This document shows positions 35,933-44,067 of a stretch of DNA of 64,000 nt, in pieces. This DNA comes from Desulfovibrionales bacterium (GTDB lineage Bacteria > Desulfobacterota > QYQD01), in contig JAQURM010000001.1 of assembly GCA_028715605.1 (NCBI GenBank), positions 426,001-490,000 of the forward strand, in the 5' to 3' direction. The position numbers and the translations under genes were made by a program. The notes under the pieces are model-generated. The model made no database searches. It saw nothing but the letters and a program-made list of their open reading frames with translations, and had not been told where the DNA came from. How positions within the stretch are numbered: position 1 is the stretch's first letter; each line of letters starts with the position of its first letter.

Positions 35933-36487
35933 ATGAAGAGGATTGCCAAATTGCTCTTTGAGGCCGGGATGCTGAAAAAGACGCCGCGTACCGGCTTCCG
36001 TTTTCTGGGTTCCGGGCAGGAATCAGTGGCGGATCATTCCTACCGGGTCATTCTCATCGGATATGTGCTGGCCGGGATTTCACCGGGTGTCGATCGATCT
36101 AAGGTAATGGAGTTATGTCTCTTCCACGATCTGGTTGAGGCCCGCACCGGGGACCTGAATTATGTTTACAAGGACTATGTCACGGTGGACTCAGTCAAGG
36201 CGGTCGCTGCCCTGACCAAGGACCTCGATTTTGGGGAGGACATCGCCGGATTAATAACAGAGTTTAAATCCGGCCATACCGAAGAGGCGAAATTAGCCCG
36301 GGACGCCGATCAGTTAGACCTCATCCTTGAGCTCAAAGAGCAGCATGATCTTGGGAATAAGTTTGCCCGGGAGTGGCTTGCACACGTAGTCAAACGGATC
36401 ACCACACCGGCCGGCCAGGAGCTTGCCGGGGAGATATTGGAGACCGATTTCTGCTCCTGGTGGTTTGATAAGTACCGGGGGAGATAA
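35933..36487 (+). CDS. HD-domain phosphohydrolase (YfbR/5'-deoxynucleotidase-like)
   Basis: Cytoplasmic metal-dependent phosphohydrolase of 184 residues. The HD-superfamily ligands are seen as His in VADHSYRV, His-Asp in FHDLVEA and Asp in DADQLD. This arrangement fits the HD_3 group that includes YfbR nucleotidases. A GGAGAGGAGAG site precedes the ATG. The substrate is inferred only from family resemblance. Confidence 0.82.
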   Translation: MKRIAKLLFEAGMLKKTPRTGFRFLGSGQESVADHSYRVILIGYVLAGISPGVDRSKVMELCLFHDLVEARTGDLNYVYKDYVTVDSVKAVAALTKDLDFGEDIAGLITEFKSGHTEEAKLARDADQLDLILELKEQHDLGNKFAREWLAHVVKRITTPAGQELAGEILETDFCSWWFDKYRGR

Positions 36488-36543
36488 AAGAAGTTCAAAG
36501 TTGAAAGTTCAAAGTTTTTGTTACAGTTTAGGAGGTAGTATCC

Positions 36544-37794
36544 ATTAGCACACCCTCATGCAATAAGTGCGGGACGTGCATGAGTGTCTGTCCCGTTTAC
36601 CAGGTAACGGGGCTGGAGGCCTATTCCCCACGGGGCAAATTAAGCCTTATTGAGGCCAACCGGGAAGGCAGGTTACCGTTTTCCGACCGCTTTGAAGAAT
36701 TGCTCTCGTACTGTCTCCTTTGCGGGGCCTGTACAACTGTCTGTCCCGCCGGGGTAAATGCGGATGCCTCCATACAGAAAGCGCGGGCAAGGTTGGTCGA
36801 AGAGAAGGGGCTTCCCGTGGGGAAGCGATACTTTTTCCATTACCTTCTGGATTCTGAATATCTTTTGCCTTTTATATTAAAAGGCGGTTCCCTGATCCAG
36901 GGCCTCCTTTGCAAAAGAATCCCGGAAGATAGCGGCCTTCATTGTCGATTTCCGATCCCTCTGTTGGCCGGAAGGTCATGGCTGCCGCCATTGGCGCCGA
37001 CCTTTTTTCTGGATAATGACCTGCCCCAGGAAACAAGCGCCCCGGCTAAGGCGGCTTACTTTACCGGGTGCATCACAAATTATCTCTTTCCTGACGTAGG
37101 GAAGGCTGTCCTGAATATTTTTGACTTTCTCGGAGAGCCTGTATGGGCGCCCAAGAAGCAGAAATGCTGTGGGTTCCCGGCCTTTTGTGCCGGGGATGAA
37201 GAGACGGCGCGTTCCCTGGCCAGGGCCAATATATCTGCATTTATGGATGGACGGTTCGATTACATCGTTACGACCTGTGCCTCCTGCAGCTCCCATCTAA
37301 GATTTAATTACCCCAGGCTTCTGGCTGATGACCCGGTTTTTGCAGAAAAAGCGGCGGAGTTTTCAGCAAAAGTGATGGATATATCGGTCTTTTTGTTCCA
37401 TAACAAGGGCTTTTCCCGGCAGTTATCGGACCTCACGCCGAAAACCAGCAGCCTGAAGGTGACGTATCATGATCCCTGCCATTTTCGGTTTAGAGAAAAG
37501 ATATTCGAGGAGCCGCGTATGCTCATCAAGTCGCTGCCCGGAGTCGATTTTCGCGAACCGGCAGGCGGAGCTGCGTGTTGTGGGCACGGCGGGTTGTTTA
37601 ATATAACTCATTATGACCTATCCCAGGTGATTCTTGATAAAAGGATGGCTGTGTTAAGAGACACGGGAGCAGATACCTTAGTCACCAGTTGTATGGGCTG
37701 CCTGCTACAGTGGCGGGAAGGCTTGTTCAGGCATGGGCTTAATGCGCAGGCCATGCATCTGGTGGAGTTATTCGATATGTTTTTATCAAAATGA
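36544..37794 (+). CDS. Two-CCG-domain iron-sulfur protein (GlcF/LutA/HdrD-like), apparent AUU start
   Basis: Redox subunit of the glycolate-oxidase iron-sulfur/heterodisulfide-reductase type. It has two [4Fe-4S] motifs (CNKCGTCMSVCP and CLLCGACTTVCP) and two CCG domains (KCCGFPAFC ... TTCASC, and ACCGHGG ... TSCMGC). The first ATG (36580) would remove three of the four cysteines of the first cluster. Upstream in frame there is a stop at 36529 and only one near-cognate codon, ATT 36544, which has AGGAGG (36530-36535) exactly 8 nt before it. From ATT the protein is 416 residues. No flavin subunit gene is adjacent; its partner is unknown. Confidence 0.85.
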   Translation: MSTPSCNKCGTCMSVCPVYQVTGLEAYSPRGKLSLIEANREGRLPFSDRFEELLSYCLLCGACTTVCPAGVNADASIQKARARLVEEKGLPVGKRYFFHYLLDSEYLLPFILKGGSLIQGLLCKRIPEDSGLHCRFPIPLLAGRSWLPPLAPTFFLDNDLPQETSAPAKAAYFTGCITNYLFPDVGKAVLNIFDFLGEPVWAPKKQKCCGFPAFCAGDEETARSLARANISAFMDGRFDYIVTTCASCSSHLRFNYPRLLADDPVFAEKAAEFSAKVMDISVFLFHNKGFSRQLSDLTPKTSSLKVTYHDPCHFRFREKIFEEPRMLIKSLPGVDFREPAGGAACCGHGGLFNITHYDLSQVILDKRMAVLRDTGADTLVTSCMGCLLQWREGLFRHGLNAQAMHLVELFDMFLSK

Positions 37795-37951: not shown

Positions 37952-38332
37952 ATGAAAAACAGGGGCATTCTGCTGATGATAGTCATGGCTGTTTTTATAA
38001 TAGCTACCTGTGCTTACGCCCAGGAGGAAATGCTGAAACTGGAGCATAAGGCCTTTGAAAAACGACAGAGGCCGGGCGTAACATTCCCGCATGCCCAACA
38101 CTTTGCTACCATTGAGTGTACGGCGTGCCATCATTTTTATGTAAATGGACAGAACGTCTGGGATGAATCGCGGGAGACGAATTGTGCGGCCTGCCACGGC
38201 TTGGAGGCCGAAGGTAAGAAAATGGGCCTTATGAAGGCGTTTCACGAAAACTGCGTAGGTTGCCACCGGGAGACCAAACCGGCAGCAGGCAAGTTACTCC
38301 CGGTGATGTGTGGCGAATGTCACAAAAAATAA
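37952..38332 (+). CDS. Tetraheme class III cytochrome c (cytochrome c3 family)
   Basis: Periplasmic electron carrier of 126 residues: a signal peptide (about 1-24, ending ATCAYA) and four CxxCH heme sites (CTACH, CAACH, CVGCH, CGECH). Early histidines (HKAF, FPHAQHF) are available as distal ligands, the pattern of class III cytochromes. ATG 37952 follows AGGAGG with good spacing; an upstream TTG at 37931 is not needed. It is monocistronic with its own terminator. Confidence 0.92.
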   Translation: MKNRGILLMIVMAVFIIATCAYAQEEMLKLEHKAFEKRQRPGVTFPHAQHFATIECTACHHFYVNGQNVWDESRETNCAACHGLEAEGKKMGLMKAFHENCVGCHRETKPAAGKLLPVMCGECHKK

Positions 38333-38353
38333 ATATGCAGATGTAATTTTTTT

Positions 38354-38381
38354 AAACGGGAAGTTTATAAACTTCCCGTTT
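38354..38381 (+). terminator. Terminator of the cytochrome c3 gene
   Basis: Arms 38354-38366 and 38369-38381 are a perfect 13-bp inverted repeat (AAACGGGAAGTTT) around a minimal loop, followed by T residues. Confidence 0.85.
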
Positions 38382-38429
38382 TTCTTTTGCGGACCGTATT
38401 AGTAATGACGGCTTGGTAAGAAGTCAATT

Positions 38430-38562
38430 TCTCACGCAAAGGCGTAAAGACCGCGAAGGAAAAATGAAAATCTGGAAATCAGAAATCAGTAATAAAAGAT
38501 TTCTTCATGAGTTTATGAGTTCCAAATTTTATTCTTTTTGCGTCCTTGGCGGCTTTGCGTGA
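38430..38562. repeat. Imperfect inverted repeat of the CTCACGCAAAGGCG type
   Basis: The left arm (38430-38463, CTCACGCAAAGGCGTAAAGACC...) is imperfectly complementary to the right arm (38533-38562, ending CGGCTTTGCGTGAT). The 70 bp between them are AT-rich. Together with flanking DNA this fills the 320-bp gap before rnfC; no gene is seen. Confidence 0.6.
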
Positions 38563-38586
38563 TATTTTGGTGTTGCTTTTTTTATC

Positions 38587-38615
38587 TTGACAAAGAGTAT
38601 GTTTAGGTATATCCA
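38587..38615 (+). promoter_or_regulatory. Candidate rnf operon promoter
   Basis: A perfect TTGACA (38587-38592) is followed by TATATC (38608-38613, 15-bp spacing) or TATCCA (38610-38615, 17-bp spacing). It lies about 40-60 bp before rnfC. Confidence 0.45.
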
Positions 38616-38651
38616 ATCCCGTAATTTGCTGGAAGGAGAGAGTGAACCAAT

Positions 38652-39947
38652 ATGAGCCCAGGTAGCTTTTCTGGCGGTATTTGCTTGTCTATTTCAGACG
38701 CAAACGCAAACAAACCCTTCGAACGTATCATCCCCTCCGGTGTTGTGACTATCCCTCTCAGGCAGGATCTCGGCGGAATTTGCAATGCCAAGGTCAAAAA
38801 GGGTGATGAGGTCAAGGTCGGACAGGTAATCGGTGAAAGCGCAGGTCCGGAAGGCGCCTCTATCCATGCCACGGTTTCCGGTAAAGTAGCCGACGTAATA
38901 AAGGCCTATCCCCATTTTTCAGGGGGATTCGTCCCGGCTGTGCTCATAGAATCCGATGGCAAGGATGAGTGGGTGGGACTGGAGGGCAGCGCGGATCCAA
39001 TGGCCGCCATACAACAGGCGGGAATTGTTGATTTTGATATAAAACCGGTCCCGCTTGTGACTAAGCTCAACGAGGCAAAGTCTCGCCGGGCTAACGCCTT
39101 TATTGTGAATGCCATGGACATAGAGCCGGTACTCTCGAGCCGGTCACGTCTGTTGTCTGAAAGGGTTCAGGAAGTGGCCTGCGGGATAGACACTATAAAA
39201 AACATAATCGGCGCGGCATCGGTGTATGTTGCCGTCGATAAAGGTGCGTCTCAGGCTATGTCCGCTGTCGGTTCCGCCTGCGGTGGCGCGGCTACCGTAG
39301 TGGGGTTGAACCCTAAGTACCCCCAGGCTGTTGACCTCTTACTGGTAAAGTCGATCCTGGGGAAGGAGGTGCCCTGTACAGAGGCCTATTGTGTGGCCGA
39401 TATAGGGGCCCTGGTTCTGAGCGTCGAGACGGTGGCGGCGGTGGGCCGGGCTATGGCGGACAAAAAGCCGGTGGTGGACAGGTTTATAACCATTACCGGC
39501 GCCAATGGGACCGGCGCCAAAAATGTCCAGGTAAGGATAGGCACGCCGATTAAGGAAGTTCTGGGGCACTGTGGAATTTCCGTGGAAGGGATGGGCAAGG
39601 TTATAGCCGGCGGCCCCATGATGGGCACGGCCATCGCCAATACCGAGACGCCGGTGACCAAAGAGTTGCTCGGTATTTTCGTACAAAATGAAAAAGACAT
39701 CACAAAATCTGAAGCGGCCGTCTGTATAAAATGTGGTTTTTGTGTGGACGTTTGTCCAATGCAACTCATGCCCTTCCTCATCTCGGGCTTGTCTGAATCG
39801 GCCAACTACACTATGGCCCAGGGATATGAGATTTTTACCTGTATAGAGTGTGGTTGCTGTGCCTATGTGTGTCCGGTGAGGATACCCATGGTGCAATGGA
39901 TAAAATTCGGCAAGGCACAAATTCTAGCGCAAAGGAGTAGCGAATGA
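38652..39947 (+). CDS. rnfC: Rnf complex subunit RnfC
   Basis: Peripheral subunit that oxidises NADH and carries FMN and two [4Fe-4S] clusters in the ferredoxin:NAD+ oxidoreductase. It is 431 residues, with an N-terminal biotinyl-like fold (KKGDEVKVGQVIG ... IHATVSGKV), a NuoF-like middle and C-terminal clusters CIKCGFCVDVCP and CIECGCCAYVCP. A GGAAGGAGAG site precedes the ATG. It is the first gene of the operon and overlaps rnfD by four bases. Confidence 0.96.
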   Translation: MSPGSFSGGICLSISDANANKPFERIIPSGVVTIPLRQDLGGICNAKVKKGDEVKVGQVIGESAGPEGASIHATVSGKVADVIKAYPHFSGGFVPAVLIESDGKDEWVGLEGSADPMAAIQQAGIVDFDIKPVPLVTKLNEAKSRRANAFIVNAMDIEPVLSSRSRLLSERVQEVACGIDTIKNIIGAASVYVAVDKGASQAMSAVGSACGGAATVVGLNPKYPQAVDLLLVKSILGKEVPCTEAYCVADIGALVLSVETVAAVGRAMADKKPVVDRFITITGANGTGAKNVQVRIGTPIKEVLGHCGISVEGMGKVIAGGPMMGTAIANTETPVTKELLGIFVQNEKDITKSEAAVCIKCGFCVDVCPMQLMPFLISGLSESANYTMAQGYEIFTCIECGCCAYVCPVRIPMVQWIKFGKAQILAQRSSE

Positions 39948-40912
39948 AAGCCCCGGAACTTGTTGTATCCGCAACGCCGCATATCCATAGCGGCAATTCC
40001 GTTCAAAAGATGATGCTTAATATAATTATCGCCCTGCTCCCGGCTGTAGCTATCGGTATTTATTTTTATGGCATGGGTGCCTTAGTGGTAGCGGCCGTTT
40101 CCGTAGTTTCGGCAGTGGCCTGGGAGGCTATCCTGCAGAAAATATTAGGGCGGCAACTCGCCCTTGGTAATCTTACTGCAGTGGCAAGCGGTCTGGTTTT
40201 CGCTGCAATCCTCCCACCCACACTCCCCTGGTGGATGATAACCATTGCCACGCTCATCATGATACTCCTTGGCAAGGAGATTTACGGGGGGTTGGGAAAC
40301 AACCCATTCAATGGAGTATTGGTAGCCTATGTGGCCTTAAAAATATCTTACCCGGAGGCCATGATCACCTGGACGCCGCCGGCCGGTGATATCATGACCG
40401 AGCTGCCCCCCCTCCAGGTCTTAAGGGATGAAGGGGTCGGGGTTATCTGGGAATACTTTACTTTGAAAGACCTCCTCATGGGCAAGGTTGCCGGTACCGT
40501 AGGTGAAGGGTGCAAGATTGCGTTACTGATAGGCGGCCTGTTCCTTCTTTTAAGGCGGAATTTTTCCTGGCACATCCCGGCTGGTTTCCTGACGGGTATC
40601 GTCGTCTTATCAGGTATTTTGTGGATGGCCAATGCCGAAAAGTACGCCAGCCCGCTTTTCCATCTCCTGACCGGTGGTAGTCTCCTGGCGGCCTTTTTCC
40701 TGGCTACCGATTCGACTACCTCGCCGGTTACACCGGGCGGTAAACTTCTGTCTGGATTGTTAGCCGGTATGCTTGCGGTGGTTATCAGGGCATGGGCTCA
40801 GTGGGAGGATGGGGCCTATTTCGCTGTTTTTATGGCCGGTACGTTAACCCCGCTCTTAGATAAGATCAGACCAAGAGTTTACGGGAGGGTAAAAGCCAGT
40901 GCAACTTCGTGA
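39944..40912 (+). CDS. rnfD: Rnf complex subunit RnfD
   Basis: Membrane subunit of 322 residues with about nine to ten hydrophobic helices. The site for covalent FMN attachment is recognisable as ATDSTTSPVTP, and the conserved GGLGNNPFNGVLVAY segment is present. FMN attachment requires ApbE, which is encoded at 47052. It overlaps rnfC by four and rnfG by 14 bases. Confidence 0.96.
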   Translation: MKAPELVVSATPHIHSGNSVQKMMLNIIIALLPAVAIGIYFYGMGALVVAAVSVVSAVAWEAILQKILGRQLALGNLTAVASGLVFAAILPPTLPWWMITIATLIMILLGKEIYGGLGNNPFNGVLVAYVALKISYPEAMITWTPPAGDIMTELPPLQVLRDEGVGVIWEYFTLKDLLMGKVAGTVGEGCKIALLIGGLFLLLRRNFSWHIPAGFLTGIVVLSGILWMANAEKYASPLFHLLTGGSLLAAFFLATDSTTSPVTPGGKLLSGLLAGMLAVVIRAWAQWEDGAYFAVFMAGTLTPLLDKIRPRVYGRVKASATS

Positions 40913-41495
40913 AATTATCAAGATGATCGTGGTGTTGACGCTTGTGGCGGCTGTCTGCGGCGGCGGACTGTCTTTAGTAAAGATGGCCACGGCTGAGCAA
41001 ATTGCCTACCAAAAGATTAAGAATATCAAGGAACCGGCGCTGAAGAAGGTGCTGACCGGTTATGATAATGATCCCGTCACAGACCGGAAGGACATCGTGA
41101 CCGGCAAAGACAAAAAAGGGAAAGATATTATAACCACGTTTTTCTTTGCCAAGAGCGGAGGAAAAGTTATCTCTGTGGCGTTCGAGACTTCTGCCGGTGG
41201 ATTTCACGGAGATGTCGGTGTTATGGTGGCGGTAAACCCTGCTACCGACAAACTGGACGGCTGTGCCATTACCACTCAGACCGAGACACCGGGTGTCGGC
41301 AGCAGGGTAGCGGATGACCCGTCCTTCTGTGCCCAGTTCAAAGGCAAGTCTGTATCGGAAAATTTCGGACTTACTTCAGCCGGCGGTGTGGTACAGGGCC
41401 TGAGCGGGGCCACGGTGTCATCGACCGGTGTTAGTAATGCGATGAAGGCCGGTATAGAAGTGTATAAAAAATACAAGTCCCAGTTGGGTGTATAA
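40899..41495 (+). CDS. rnfG: Rnf complex subunit RnfG
   Basis: Flavoprotein subunit of 198 residues with one N-terminal membrane helix and a periplasmic FMN-binding domain. The covalent FMN site is SGATVSS, Thr172. The start is GTG 40899, inside the 3' end of rnfD, so translation is coupled. Another ApbE substrate. Confidence 0.95.
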   Translation: MQLREIIKMIVVLTLVAAVCGGGLSLVKMATAEQIAYQKIKNIKEPALKKVLTGYDNDPVTDRKDIVTGKDKKGKDIITTFFFAKSGGKVISVAFETSAGGFHGDVGVMVAVNPATDKLDGCAITTQTETPGVGSRVADDPSFCAQFKGKSVSENFGLTSAGGVVQGLSGATVSSTGVSNAMKAGIEVYKKYKSQLGV

Positions 41496-41515
41496 TCTAT
41501 AAGGAGGGTTCATAG

Positions 41516-42124
41516 ATGGCGTCGCGTTACGTATCGGAATTTACCAAAGGCCTCTGGAAGGAGATACCGCCATTTCGTTTTGTTCTGGGTCTCTGCTCTA
41601 CAATGGCCGTGACCACGGATGTGGCCAATGGTGTGGGCTTGGGGGCCGGGGTCATTTTTGTGACCACCATGGGGAATGTCTTTATCTCCATGCTGCGGAA
41701 GATTATCCCGGATAAGGTGAGGATAGCAGTATTTATTGCTATTATTGCCAGTGCGGTCATCATAGTGGAACTGGTAATGCAGGCCTATTTCTATCCGCTT
41801 TTCCTGGTGCTCGGTATCTGGATACCTCTTATAGTAGTTAACTGAATACCCCTTGGACGGGCGGAGGCCTTCGCCCGCAAAGAGTCGGTCGGACTCTCTT
41901 TAGTTGATGGGCTGGGAATGGGGTTGGGGTTTACTATATCACTGACTGTAGTATCAACTATCCGTGAGATACTGGGTAAGGGTTCATGGTTCGGTATTCC
42001 GCTGATGCCCGAGGGTTATCCGGGCATGCCATACCTTCTCAAGCCGCCGGGCGCTTTTGCCCTCCTGGGAATCCTGCTCGGGATCATGAACTTTATATCC
42101 CTGAAGATGGAAGCCAAGAAGTAA
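41516..42124 (+). CDS. rnfE: Rnf complex subunit RnfE with in-frame UGA at the [2Fe-2S] ligand (candidate selenoprotein)
   Basis: Membrane subunit that with RnfA holds a [2Fe-2S] cluster in the membrane. The gene is interrupted only by TGA 41843-41845 at codon 110; the frame then continues unbroken to 42124 (202 residues with read-through) with clear RnfE sequence on both sides: IPLIVVN, UGA, then IPLGRAEAFARK and LVDGLGMGLGFT. Homologues have Cys at this place (VVNC). Cys27 is the other ligand; the 83-residue spacing 27-110 equals that of Cys29-Cys112 in Vibrio NqrD. The spaced hairpin at 41858 fits a SECIS. Alternatives: a Cys-codon point mutation or a sequencing error. ATG 41918 could in theory restart translation but would give only the C-terminal 68 residues. 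Confidence 0.8.
41858..41877 (+). promoter_or_regulatory. Candidate bacterial SECIS element in rnfE
   Basis: A hairpin with arms CGGGCGG (41858-41864) and TCGCCCG (41871-41877), six Watson-Crick pairs plus one G-U, closes an AGGCCT loop (41865-41870). There are 19 nt between the UGA and the loop, within the 16-37 nt window used for bacterial SECIS, and a G is in the first two loop bases. The loop resembles AGGUCU of E. coli fdhF, which lies 17 nt after its UGA. The loop U of fdhF is C here. Confidence 0.5.
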
Positions 42125-42145
42125 TCTGAAAGGAGAGGTCGCATT

Positions 42146-42724
42146 ATGGAACAAAGCTGGTTCATGTTTATACTTTCAGCTATCATTATAAATAACATCC
42201 TCTTGATAAGGTTCCTGGGTAACTGTCCGTTTCTGGGGGTTACCACGGCCATGGACAGCGCCATCGGCATGTCGGCCGCCTGTATATTCGTCAACGTCCT
42301 GTCCGGGGTTCTCTGCTGGATATTTCAGAAGGCGGTGCTGGATACCCTGGGTCTGGAATATCTCCAGACCCTGGCCTTTATCCTGATCATCGCCGGGTTG
42401 GTCCAGTTTGTAGAGATGGTCCTTCAGAAGATGTCGCCTGGGCTATATCGTGCCCTGGGTATCTACCTGCCGCTTATTACTACCAACTGCATGATTTTTG
42501 GTGTGGCCGTGCTGAATATCCAGGAAGACTACGATTTTATGCATACAGTGGTGTATTCCATTGCTACGGCGGTGGGTTTCAGCGTGGCCATGGTGATCAT
42601 GGCCGGCATCAGGGAACGGATGCGGATCGCACATATACCGAAGCTGTTGGACGGGGTGCCGCTTGGCCTGATTACGGCCGGGATGATAGGCCTTTCCTTT
42701 TTCGGACTGGCCGGCGTAGGTTGA
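42146..42724 (+). CDS. rnfA: Rnf complex subunit RnfA
   Basis: Membrane subunit of 192 residues with six helices. The two cluster-ligand cysteines are intact: Cys27 in FLGNCPFLG and Cys115 in TTNCMIFG. Together with RnfE Cys27 and residue 110 they would complete the intramembrane [2Fe-2S] site. An AAGGAGAGG site precedes the ATG. Confidence 0.96.
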   Translation: MEQSWFMFILSAIIINNILLIRFLGNCPFLGVTTAMDSAIGMSAACIFVNVLSGVLCWIFQKAVLDTLGLEYLQTLAFILIIAGLVQFVEMVLQKMSPGLYRALGIYLPLITTNCMIFGVAVLNIQEDYDFMHTVVYSIATAVGFSVAMVIMAGIRERMRIAHIPKLLDGVPLGLITAGMIGLSFFGLAGVG

Positions 42725-42772
42725 TGGATTTACGTTTACCAGGAACAAAATGAAATAAGAGGGTGGTATGTT

Positions 42773-43579
42773 ATGGGACCGACAATTACGGCAATCGTAG
42801 CTATGGGGGCACTGGGATTGGGGCTGAGTGTAGTGCTGGGGGTGGCCGCCAAGGTCTTTTACATCTACGTTGACCCCCGGATAGGGGCAGTTACGGATGT
42901 CCTGCCCGGCGCTAATTGTGGCGGCTGCGGTTATGCGGGATGCAGCGACTGTGCGGCGGCTATTGTGGAAGGCAAGGCGCCGGTTAATGCCTGTAAGGCT
43001 GGCGGCGCCGGTACGGCCGCGGCCGTGGCCCAAGTGTTAGGTGTTTCAGCGGCGGTTGGAGAGCGCGAGGTCGCCAGGATCTTCTGTAAAGGTGACAGTG
43101 CCAAGGCCGAACGAAAGTTCAAATACATGGGTATTAATGACTGCCGGGCGGCCATGCTGGTCTCCAGTGGTGATAAATCTTGTAGCTACGGATGCCTGGG
43201 GCTGGGCACATGCGTAGCCAATTGTCCGTTTGGGGCGCTCAGCATGGGGGAAGACGGCCTGCCCAAAGTAGATGATGAGAAATGTACGGCCTGCGGGACG
43301 TGTGTCAAGGTGTGTCCGCGGCATATCCCTAAGGTGGTTCCGGTATCGCAGAAAGCGGCTAGTCTGTGCTCTTCGCATGATGTCGGCAAGCTGGTCAAGG
43401 AGATCTGCGATGCCGGCTGTCTGGGCTGCGGCCTGTGCAAGAAGGCGTGTCCGGAAAAGGCGATTGAGATCGTGAAATTCCTTTCCGTAGTGGATGCCAA
43501 AAAATGCACCGGATGCGGGGCATGCTTTGAGAAGTGCCCGACCGGTATTATTCAAAGCTTAGTTTTCACCGTAGTATGA
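42773..43579 (+). CDS. rnfB: Rnf complex subunit RnfB
   Basis: Entry point for ferredoxin electrons. It is 268 residues: an N-terminal membrane anchor, an Fe-S domain (NCGGCGYAGCSDC) and ferredoxin-type clusters (CLGLGTCVANCPFG, CTACGTCVKVCP, CLGCGLCKKACP, CTGCGACFEKCP). It is the last rnf gene in the order C-D-G-E-A-B, with a stress-protein gene 11 bp later. Confidence 0.95.
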   Translation: MGPTITAIVAMGALGLGLSVVLGVAAKVFYIYVDPRIGAVTDVLPGANCGGCGYAGCSDCAAAIVEGKAPVNACKAGGAGTAAAVAQVLGVSAAVGEREVARIFCKGDSAKAERKFKYMGINDCRAAMLVSSGDKSCSYGCLGLGTCVANCPFGALSMGEDGLPKVDDEKCTACGTCVKVCPRHIPKVVPVSQKAASLCSSHDVGKLVKEICDAGCLGCGLCKKACPEKAIEIVKFLSVVDAKKCTGCGACFEKCPTGIIQSLVFTVV

Positions 43580-43590
43580 GGAGGCGTTGA

Positions 43591-44067
43591 ATGTCTCAGA
43601 AGATATTGATAGCCATGGATGAGTCGGAATATTCCATGAAGGCGGTGCGGTATGTGGCTGATACCGTGAATCCAAAGGCCGTGGAGATAACCCTTTTTAG
43701 CGTGTTGCCGGAGGCGCCTGGCACCGGCCTGGAAAAGGAGCCATCGCTGATTCCCCTTTTTCAGAGCCGGTTAACCGAGTTAAAGGGTCTTACGGAAGAG
43801 AAGCGCAAGATAATGGAATCCGCTACGGCTTCAGCCAGGAAGATTCTGGAGGGAGCAGGGATACCGGACAACAAAATAGGCGTCAAGATCCAGGTAAAGA
43901 AGGTTGGTATAGCCCGGGACATCATGTTTGAGGCCCAGGAAGGAAAGTATAGCGCCATTGTCGTTGGGCGACGAGGTGTTTCTGCCATAAAGGAATTTAT
44001 GTTCGGCAGCATTTCGAACAAGGTGGTAAGTTTCGCACGAAACTGCACGGTCTGGGTTGTGGATTAA
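43591..44067 (+). CDS. Universal stress protein, UspA family
   Basis: 158 residues with the N-terminal KILIAMDESEYSMKAVRYVAD and the C-terminal nucleotide loop VVGRRGVSAIKEFMFGSISNKVV, an ATP-binding Usp pattern. It lies 11 bp after rnfB with an AGGAGG site and 2 bp before the RseC gene, so it is likely part of the rnf transcript. Its role with Rnf is unknown. Confidence 0.92.
   Translation: MSQKILIAMDESEYSMKAVRYVADTVNPKAVEITLFSVLPEAPGTGLEKEPSLIPLFQSRLTELKGLTEEKRKIMESATASARKILEGAGIPDNKIGVKIQVKKVGIARDIMFEAQEGKYSAIVVGRRGVSAIKEFMFGSISNKVVSFARNCTVWVVD

Follow-up and report, generated by a model that had tools for sequence, protein, structure and literature searches.

The locus

The window is the whole 64,000-nucleotide stretch of DNA analysed here. 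On its + strand, a gene for a 416-amino-acid iron-sulfur protein (36544-37794) lies between an upstream HD-domain gene (35933-36487; Pfam HD_3, 102 bits) and a downstream gene for a TmcA-like class III cytochrome (37952-38332; 109.7 bits, the cut-off being 114). Both neighbours, and the order of the three genes, are retained in five of five genomes of the genus: the window's own and the four (G001-G004) in which a homologue search over 59 genomes located full-length same-genus homologues, with 95, 95, 88 and 81% protein identity to the window's protein. A class-wide genome search yielded only these five genomes, all of one genus. RnfC lies beyond the cytochrome in four of the five. On the G002 contig (L095) the match to the window ends at 38328 and resumes at 43591, the two points being ~11.9 kb apart in G002, with other DNA in place of the Rnf genes (window 38329-43590); a search for rnfE in that genome, which is 81% complete, gave no match.

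The iron-sulfur protein has two CxxCxxCxxxCP ferredoxin motifs (at residues 6 and 57) and two complete CCG motifs (176-248 and 312-386, spaced C-x31-CC-x35-CxxC and C-x32-CC-x36-CxxC), with Pfam matches to CCG (121 bits) and Fer4_8 (56 bits); two CCG and ferredoxin motifs being present, it belongs where the preliminary description had placed it, among the two-CCG iron-sulfur proteins. Its best NCBIfam match is to the C-terminal 400 positions (305-705) of LdhH, and it falls below the cut-offs of the NCBIfam families listed (LdhH, 286 bits against 800; GlcF, 168.5 against 333; GlpC, 162.7 against 278; TmcB, 25 against 735). Among proteins of solved structure, its best matches are HdrB chains, with E values from 3.4e-16. 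The product is best explained as an HdrB/GlcF/LdhH-like subunit of the electron-transfer or disulfide-reductase type, with two ferredoxin and two CCG motifs.

The start region

An in-frame TAG (36529-36531, +) closes the frame upstream in the window; the four relatives have CAG at the same place. Between this stop codon and the first ATG (36580-36582, +) the frame contains no ATG, GTG or TTG. The translated frame, ISTPSCNKCGTCMSVCP, carries the first CxxCxxCxxxCP motif, within which that ATG lies: three of the four cysteines precede it, and a protein started there would lose three of its four ligand cysteines. What the frame does contain, after the codons GAG GTA GTA TCC that follow the TAG, is an ATT (36544-36546, +), which is separated by 8 nt from a perfect AGGAGG (36530-36535). 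The latter is part of a Shine-Dalgarno (SD) sequence, AGGAGGT (36530-36536, +), that is identical in five of five genomes, with a calculated leader/anti-SD duplex energy of -11.6 kcal/mol in the window and of -11.6 to -11.9 kcal/mol across the five. The stop codon, the AGGAGG, the ATT and the place of the ATG within the motif, from which an AUU start had originally been proposed, were all reproduced.

The proposal itself is strongly supported by comparison with the relatives. All four read AGGAGGTAG-N-ATCC-ATT-AGC at the start region, so that SD, 8-nt spacing and ATT are the same in all five genomes of the genus. G003 resembles the window further in having no in-frame ATG, GTG or TTG between its upstream stop codon and the ATT. 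The distance from the last sense codon of the HD gene to the ATT is 60 nt in the window, 32 nt in G001, G002 and G004 and 295 nt in G003, whose leader is mostly different DNA and yet matches that of G001 at all but one of the last 20 nt before the ATT. Short direct repeats of the AAAGTTCAAAGTT type occupy window positions 36488-36528, the stretch that separates the HD gene from the SD; they are absent there in G001, G002 and G004, and G003 has similar repeats together with further DNA.

The window comes from a draft assembly of 25 contigs, and the preliminary description had allowed for an error, with ATG, GTG or TTG as the true codon, or an indel that links the frame to an earlier start. When the relatives were examined on both counts, ATT was found in all four, and no joining of the window's frame to an earlier start emerged. 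The agreement of five genomes in SD, spacing and ATT argues strongly against a miscalled base: the four other species assemblies include three that match differently named public MAGs (Yes70-07, PowLak16_MAG11 and SpSt-1152), and each frame is unbroken over all 416 codons. An error is thus very unlikely, and the AUU looks like a kept feature of the sequence.

In 25 of 25 more distant homologues (L010-L034, at most 47% identity) an in-frame standard codon precedes the first cysteine, which makes the AUU a trait of this lineage; all 25 also retain the four cysteines of the first motif. The count of 25 leaves out L002 and L003 (partial matches elsewhere in the window's own genome, G000), L035-L037 (second copies in three relatives), L038-L041 (each also with an upstream standard codon, the cysteine motif of L041 being irregular) and L004, L005 and L042, for which there is no row. 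One of the counted homologues, L015 (G057:C15:30698-31927; 38% identical), has a single in-frame TGA.

Other starts and the onset of coding constraint

In G001, G002 and G004 the frame is open upstream of the ATT and contains standard codons within the HD gene, the nearest being TTG in G001 and G004 and ATG in G002. In these three of the five genomes, such codons could serve as the start of a gene overlapping the HD gene. The nearest codons differ among the three, however, the TAG blocks this route in the window, and G003 has no standard codon to offer. Codon change speaks to the same point. In the five genomes, the 10 codons ahead of the ATT have seven variable columns, with no synonymous and seven non-synonymous changes, whereas the 11 codons past it have six variable columns, five changing synonymously and one non-synonymously (Fisher p 0.0047, a value to be read with the small number of genomes in mind and one that ignores their relatedness). 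By this measure, coding constraint sets in at the ATT, and a start farther upstream is very improbable.

The same synonymous change ahead of ATG 36580 argues against a start there, with the preceding codons as untranslated leader. Within the window's frame no standard start precedes that ATG, and all five genomes retain it, but its SD is weak (-4.8 kcal/mol), and beginning at it would cost the protein three of the cysteines of a [4Fe-4S] site that every one of the 25 distant homologues retains. We judge it not to be the start; its use is extremely improbable. The gene is, in our judgement, very probably translated from AUU 36544.

The ATT column is itself invariant over the five genomes. The gene has 11 other isoleucine columns that are invariant in residue, of which five vary synonymously and six show no synonymous change, so the unchanged ATT, taken alone, is weak evidence. 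For the iron-sulfur gene as a whole, 272 changes are synonymous and 170 non-synonymous (61.5% synonymous). A window-wide scan for conserved frames that extend upstream of their first standard codon gave 61 open frames, among which overlapping and antisense ones were frequent; the relatives are too similar for such a scan to discriminate, and nothing was drawn from it. A codon-change version kept 38 frames at a filter of at least 62% synonymous change. Since that filter excluded the iron-sulfur gene itself, the codon-change analysis was restricted to the gene alone.

A survey of the 2.56-Mb genome for rare starts covered AGGAGG patterns and infC. The string AGGAGG-N8-ATT occurs at 26 sites, against 20 for a reversed-pattern control, and by itself is therefore near chance. 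All 26 sites were inspected, and only that of the iron-sulfur gene opens a long frame devoid of an upstream standard start; the remaining 25 are internal to longer frames, belong to short ones or adjoin a standard start (at L110, for example, 316 codons, standard starts among them, separate the stop codon from the ATT, and at L113 a GTG immediately precedes it). Spacings of 6-9 nt give 106 sites against 94 for the control; among the 30 of these 106 that were inspected, the iron-sulfur gene is the only frame of at least 200 codons that lacks an upstream standard codon. At L057 (G000:C1:551835-551850), AGGAGG-N7-ATT directly follows a stop codon and heads a 125-codon frame with no standard codon before codon 73.

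Probable initiation at AUU and a proposed role of IF3

The SD of the AUU gene is strong, not exceptional: six of 19 other, hand-picked starts in the window have a stronger one. An RNA switch at the start, common to all five genomes, was considered and rejected, the AUU being predicted to be 95% unpaired in the window as opposed to 8-9% in the four relatives; pairing that differs in this way leaves no RNA structure common to all.

We envisage that the strong and well-spaced SD would recruit the 30S subunit to AUU 36544, where the initiator tRNA would pair imperfectly with the codon. Because of that imperfect pairing, initiation should be inefficient and subject to restraint by IF3, which rejects codons other than AUG, GUG and UUG. 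The preliminary description had suggested that the AUU may hold expression low or render it sensitive to IF3. By analogy with sigR and infC (PMC5472188), we consider it somewhat probable that IF3 restrains the AUU start. Low output from the AUU would be expected in view of what was measured for cvfC1 and ccpN of Staphylococcus aureus (PMC13009471).

The infC genes of these bacteria bear on the plausibility of IF3 discrimination. infC is present in 19 of 20 genomes searched, and in the four genomes of the genus that have a match (G002 gave none) it reads TAA GGG GAG GTG GAT AGT ATA GAG; its head there is GGGGAGGTGGATAGT-ATA (L074 at G000:C6:13931-14434, L073, L075 and L076). The infC of the genus thus probably starts at AUA, with an in-frame GTG located within the SD as the rival. 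Of eight other infC loci (L077-L084), six were read: L077, L078 and L080 have no standard codon in at least their first 13 codons, and L079, L082 and L083 contain a GTG. If the AUA start is correct, an IF3-sensitive start probably exists in the genus apart from that of the iron-sulfur gene, and IF3 discrimination in these bacteria is plausible.

What, then, is the AUU for? It may be real and nevertheless a relic of an ancestral change, tolerated by virtue of the strong SD and empty of regulatory meaning. A single ancestral fixation would yield precisely the five-of-five pattern, and this explanation, which is compatible with translation from the AUU, has a respectable chance, if somewhat short of even, of being right. 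Against it, weak starts often revert to AUG in other prokaryotes (202 of 5,080 GUG starts in PMC5622118), so that a retained AUU hints at selection; the point is not decisive. Selection is the bolder reading: the electron-transfer protein beside Rnf would be a bystander of the IF3 loop, its level tracking the state of the translation machinery. We regard this as possible but on balance doubtful. Were the AUU selected and linked to IF3, an energy-metabolism gene would be under such control throughout an uncultured class.

Genes that start at AUU are known but rare. Across 36 groups of prokaryotes, a switch to AUU was recorded for only one of 61,358 ancestral AUG and one of 5,080 ancestral GUG starts (PMC5622118). 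With its AUU retained in all five genomes found for the class, this metabolic gene offers a clean setting in which to ask whether rare starts persist by selection or by tolerance. There is also a practical consequence. Gene starts are predicted from ATG, GTG and TTG codons (PMC5472188), so the iron-sulfur protein would probably be annotated from ATG 36580, shorn of its first iron-sulfur site.

A TGA codon in rnfE

Four kb past the end of the iron-sulfur gene, rnfE (41516-42124, +) has an in-frame TGA (41843-41845) at the cysteine of IPLIVVNC. Among 20 rnfE loci read, TGA occurs in three (the window, G001 and G003) and a cysteine codon in the other 17, one of which, with TGT, is that of the congener G004. 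Translated through the TGA, the frame exceeds the RsxE cut-off (236 bits against 184) and falls short of that for TIGR01948 rnfE (207 bits against 213). A search of the window's genome, G001 and G003 found SelB above its cut-off and tRNA-Sec above its gathering score. The evidence for a SECIS element after the TGA is mixed, as judged from predicted folds: an 8-bp hairpin has z -1.97 over 28 nt and z -0.65 over 48 nt, and over 48 nt the fold energies of the TGA forms (-16.7, -16.7 and -22.7) fall partly within the range for the cysteine forms (-6.8 to -19.2). In RnfE chains of solved structure the residue at this position is a cysteine, which we take to bind the intramembrane [2Fe-2S] cluster. 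RnfE may contain a selenocysteine here, which would perhaps serve as a ligand of the iron-sulfur cluster in the membrane. Among the literature matches listed, which give no proof of absence, no description of one was found: passages of PMC4287179 name RnfE and selenocysteine separately, not together, and a protein labelled an RnfC selenoprotein is in fact PrdC (PMC3091704).

Comparison with known systems

The window's protein shares ferredoxin motifs and/or CCG domains with the C-terminal part of LdhH, GlcF, GlpC, HdrB and TmcB. A further resemblance is that the cytochrome adjoining it is TmcA-like. It differs in scoring below the NCBIfam cut-offs of LdhH, GlcF, GlpC and TmcB and in being a free-standing protein of 416 amino acids.

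The pcnB gene of Escherichia coli also starts at AUU; it resembles the present gene in lying outside infC, but its protein and lineage are unrelated. Streptomyces sigR starts at GTC and is repressed by IF3 (PMC5472188). There, the limiting of output by a rare start through IF3 is an experimental finding, whereas here it is a proposal, and the gene is one for an iron-sulfur protein starting at AUU, not for a sigma factor. Further parallels are S. aureus cvfC1 (AUU) and ccpN (AUA), which give ~10% of the output of AUG in poor medium; cvfC1 is conserved among Staphylococci and ccpN is found also in Bacillus subtilis (PMC13009471). Conserved AUU or AUA codons, a strong SD and a location outside infC are common to these genes and ours. 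Theirs have extended SD pairing, encode a small protein and a regulator, and have had their output measured; ours is known as sequence. Another is infC itself, which starts at AUU, AUA or AUC and autoregulates IF3 (PMC5472188 and PMC13009471). A non-canonical AUH codon is common to infC and the AUU gene, and the infC of the genus studied here likewise has a good SD, but where infC autoregulates IF3, the AUU gene encodes an electron-transfer protein, so that any effect of IF3 on it would fall on a bystander.
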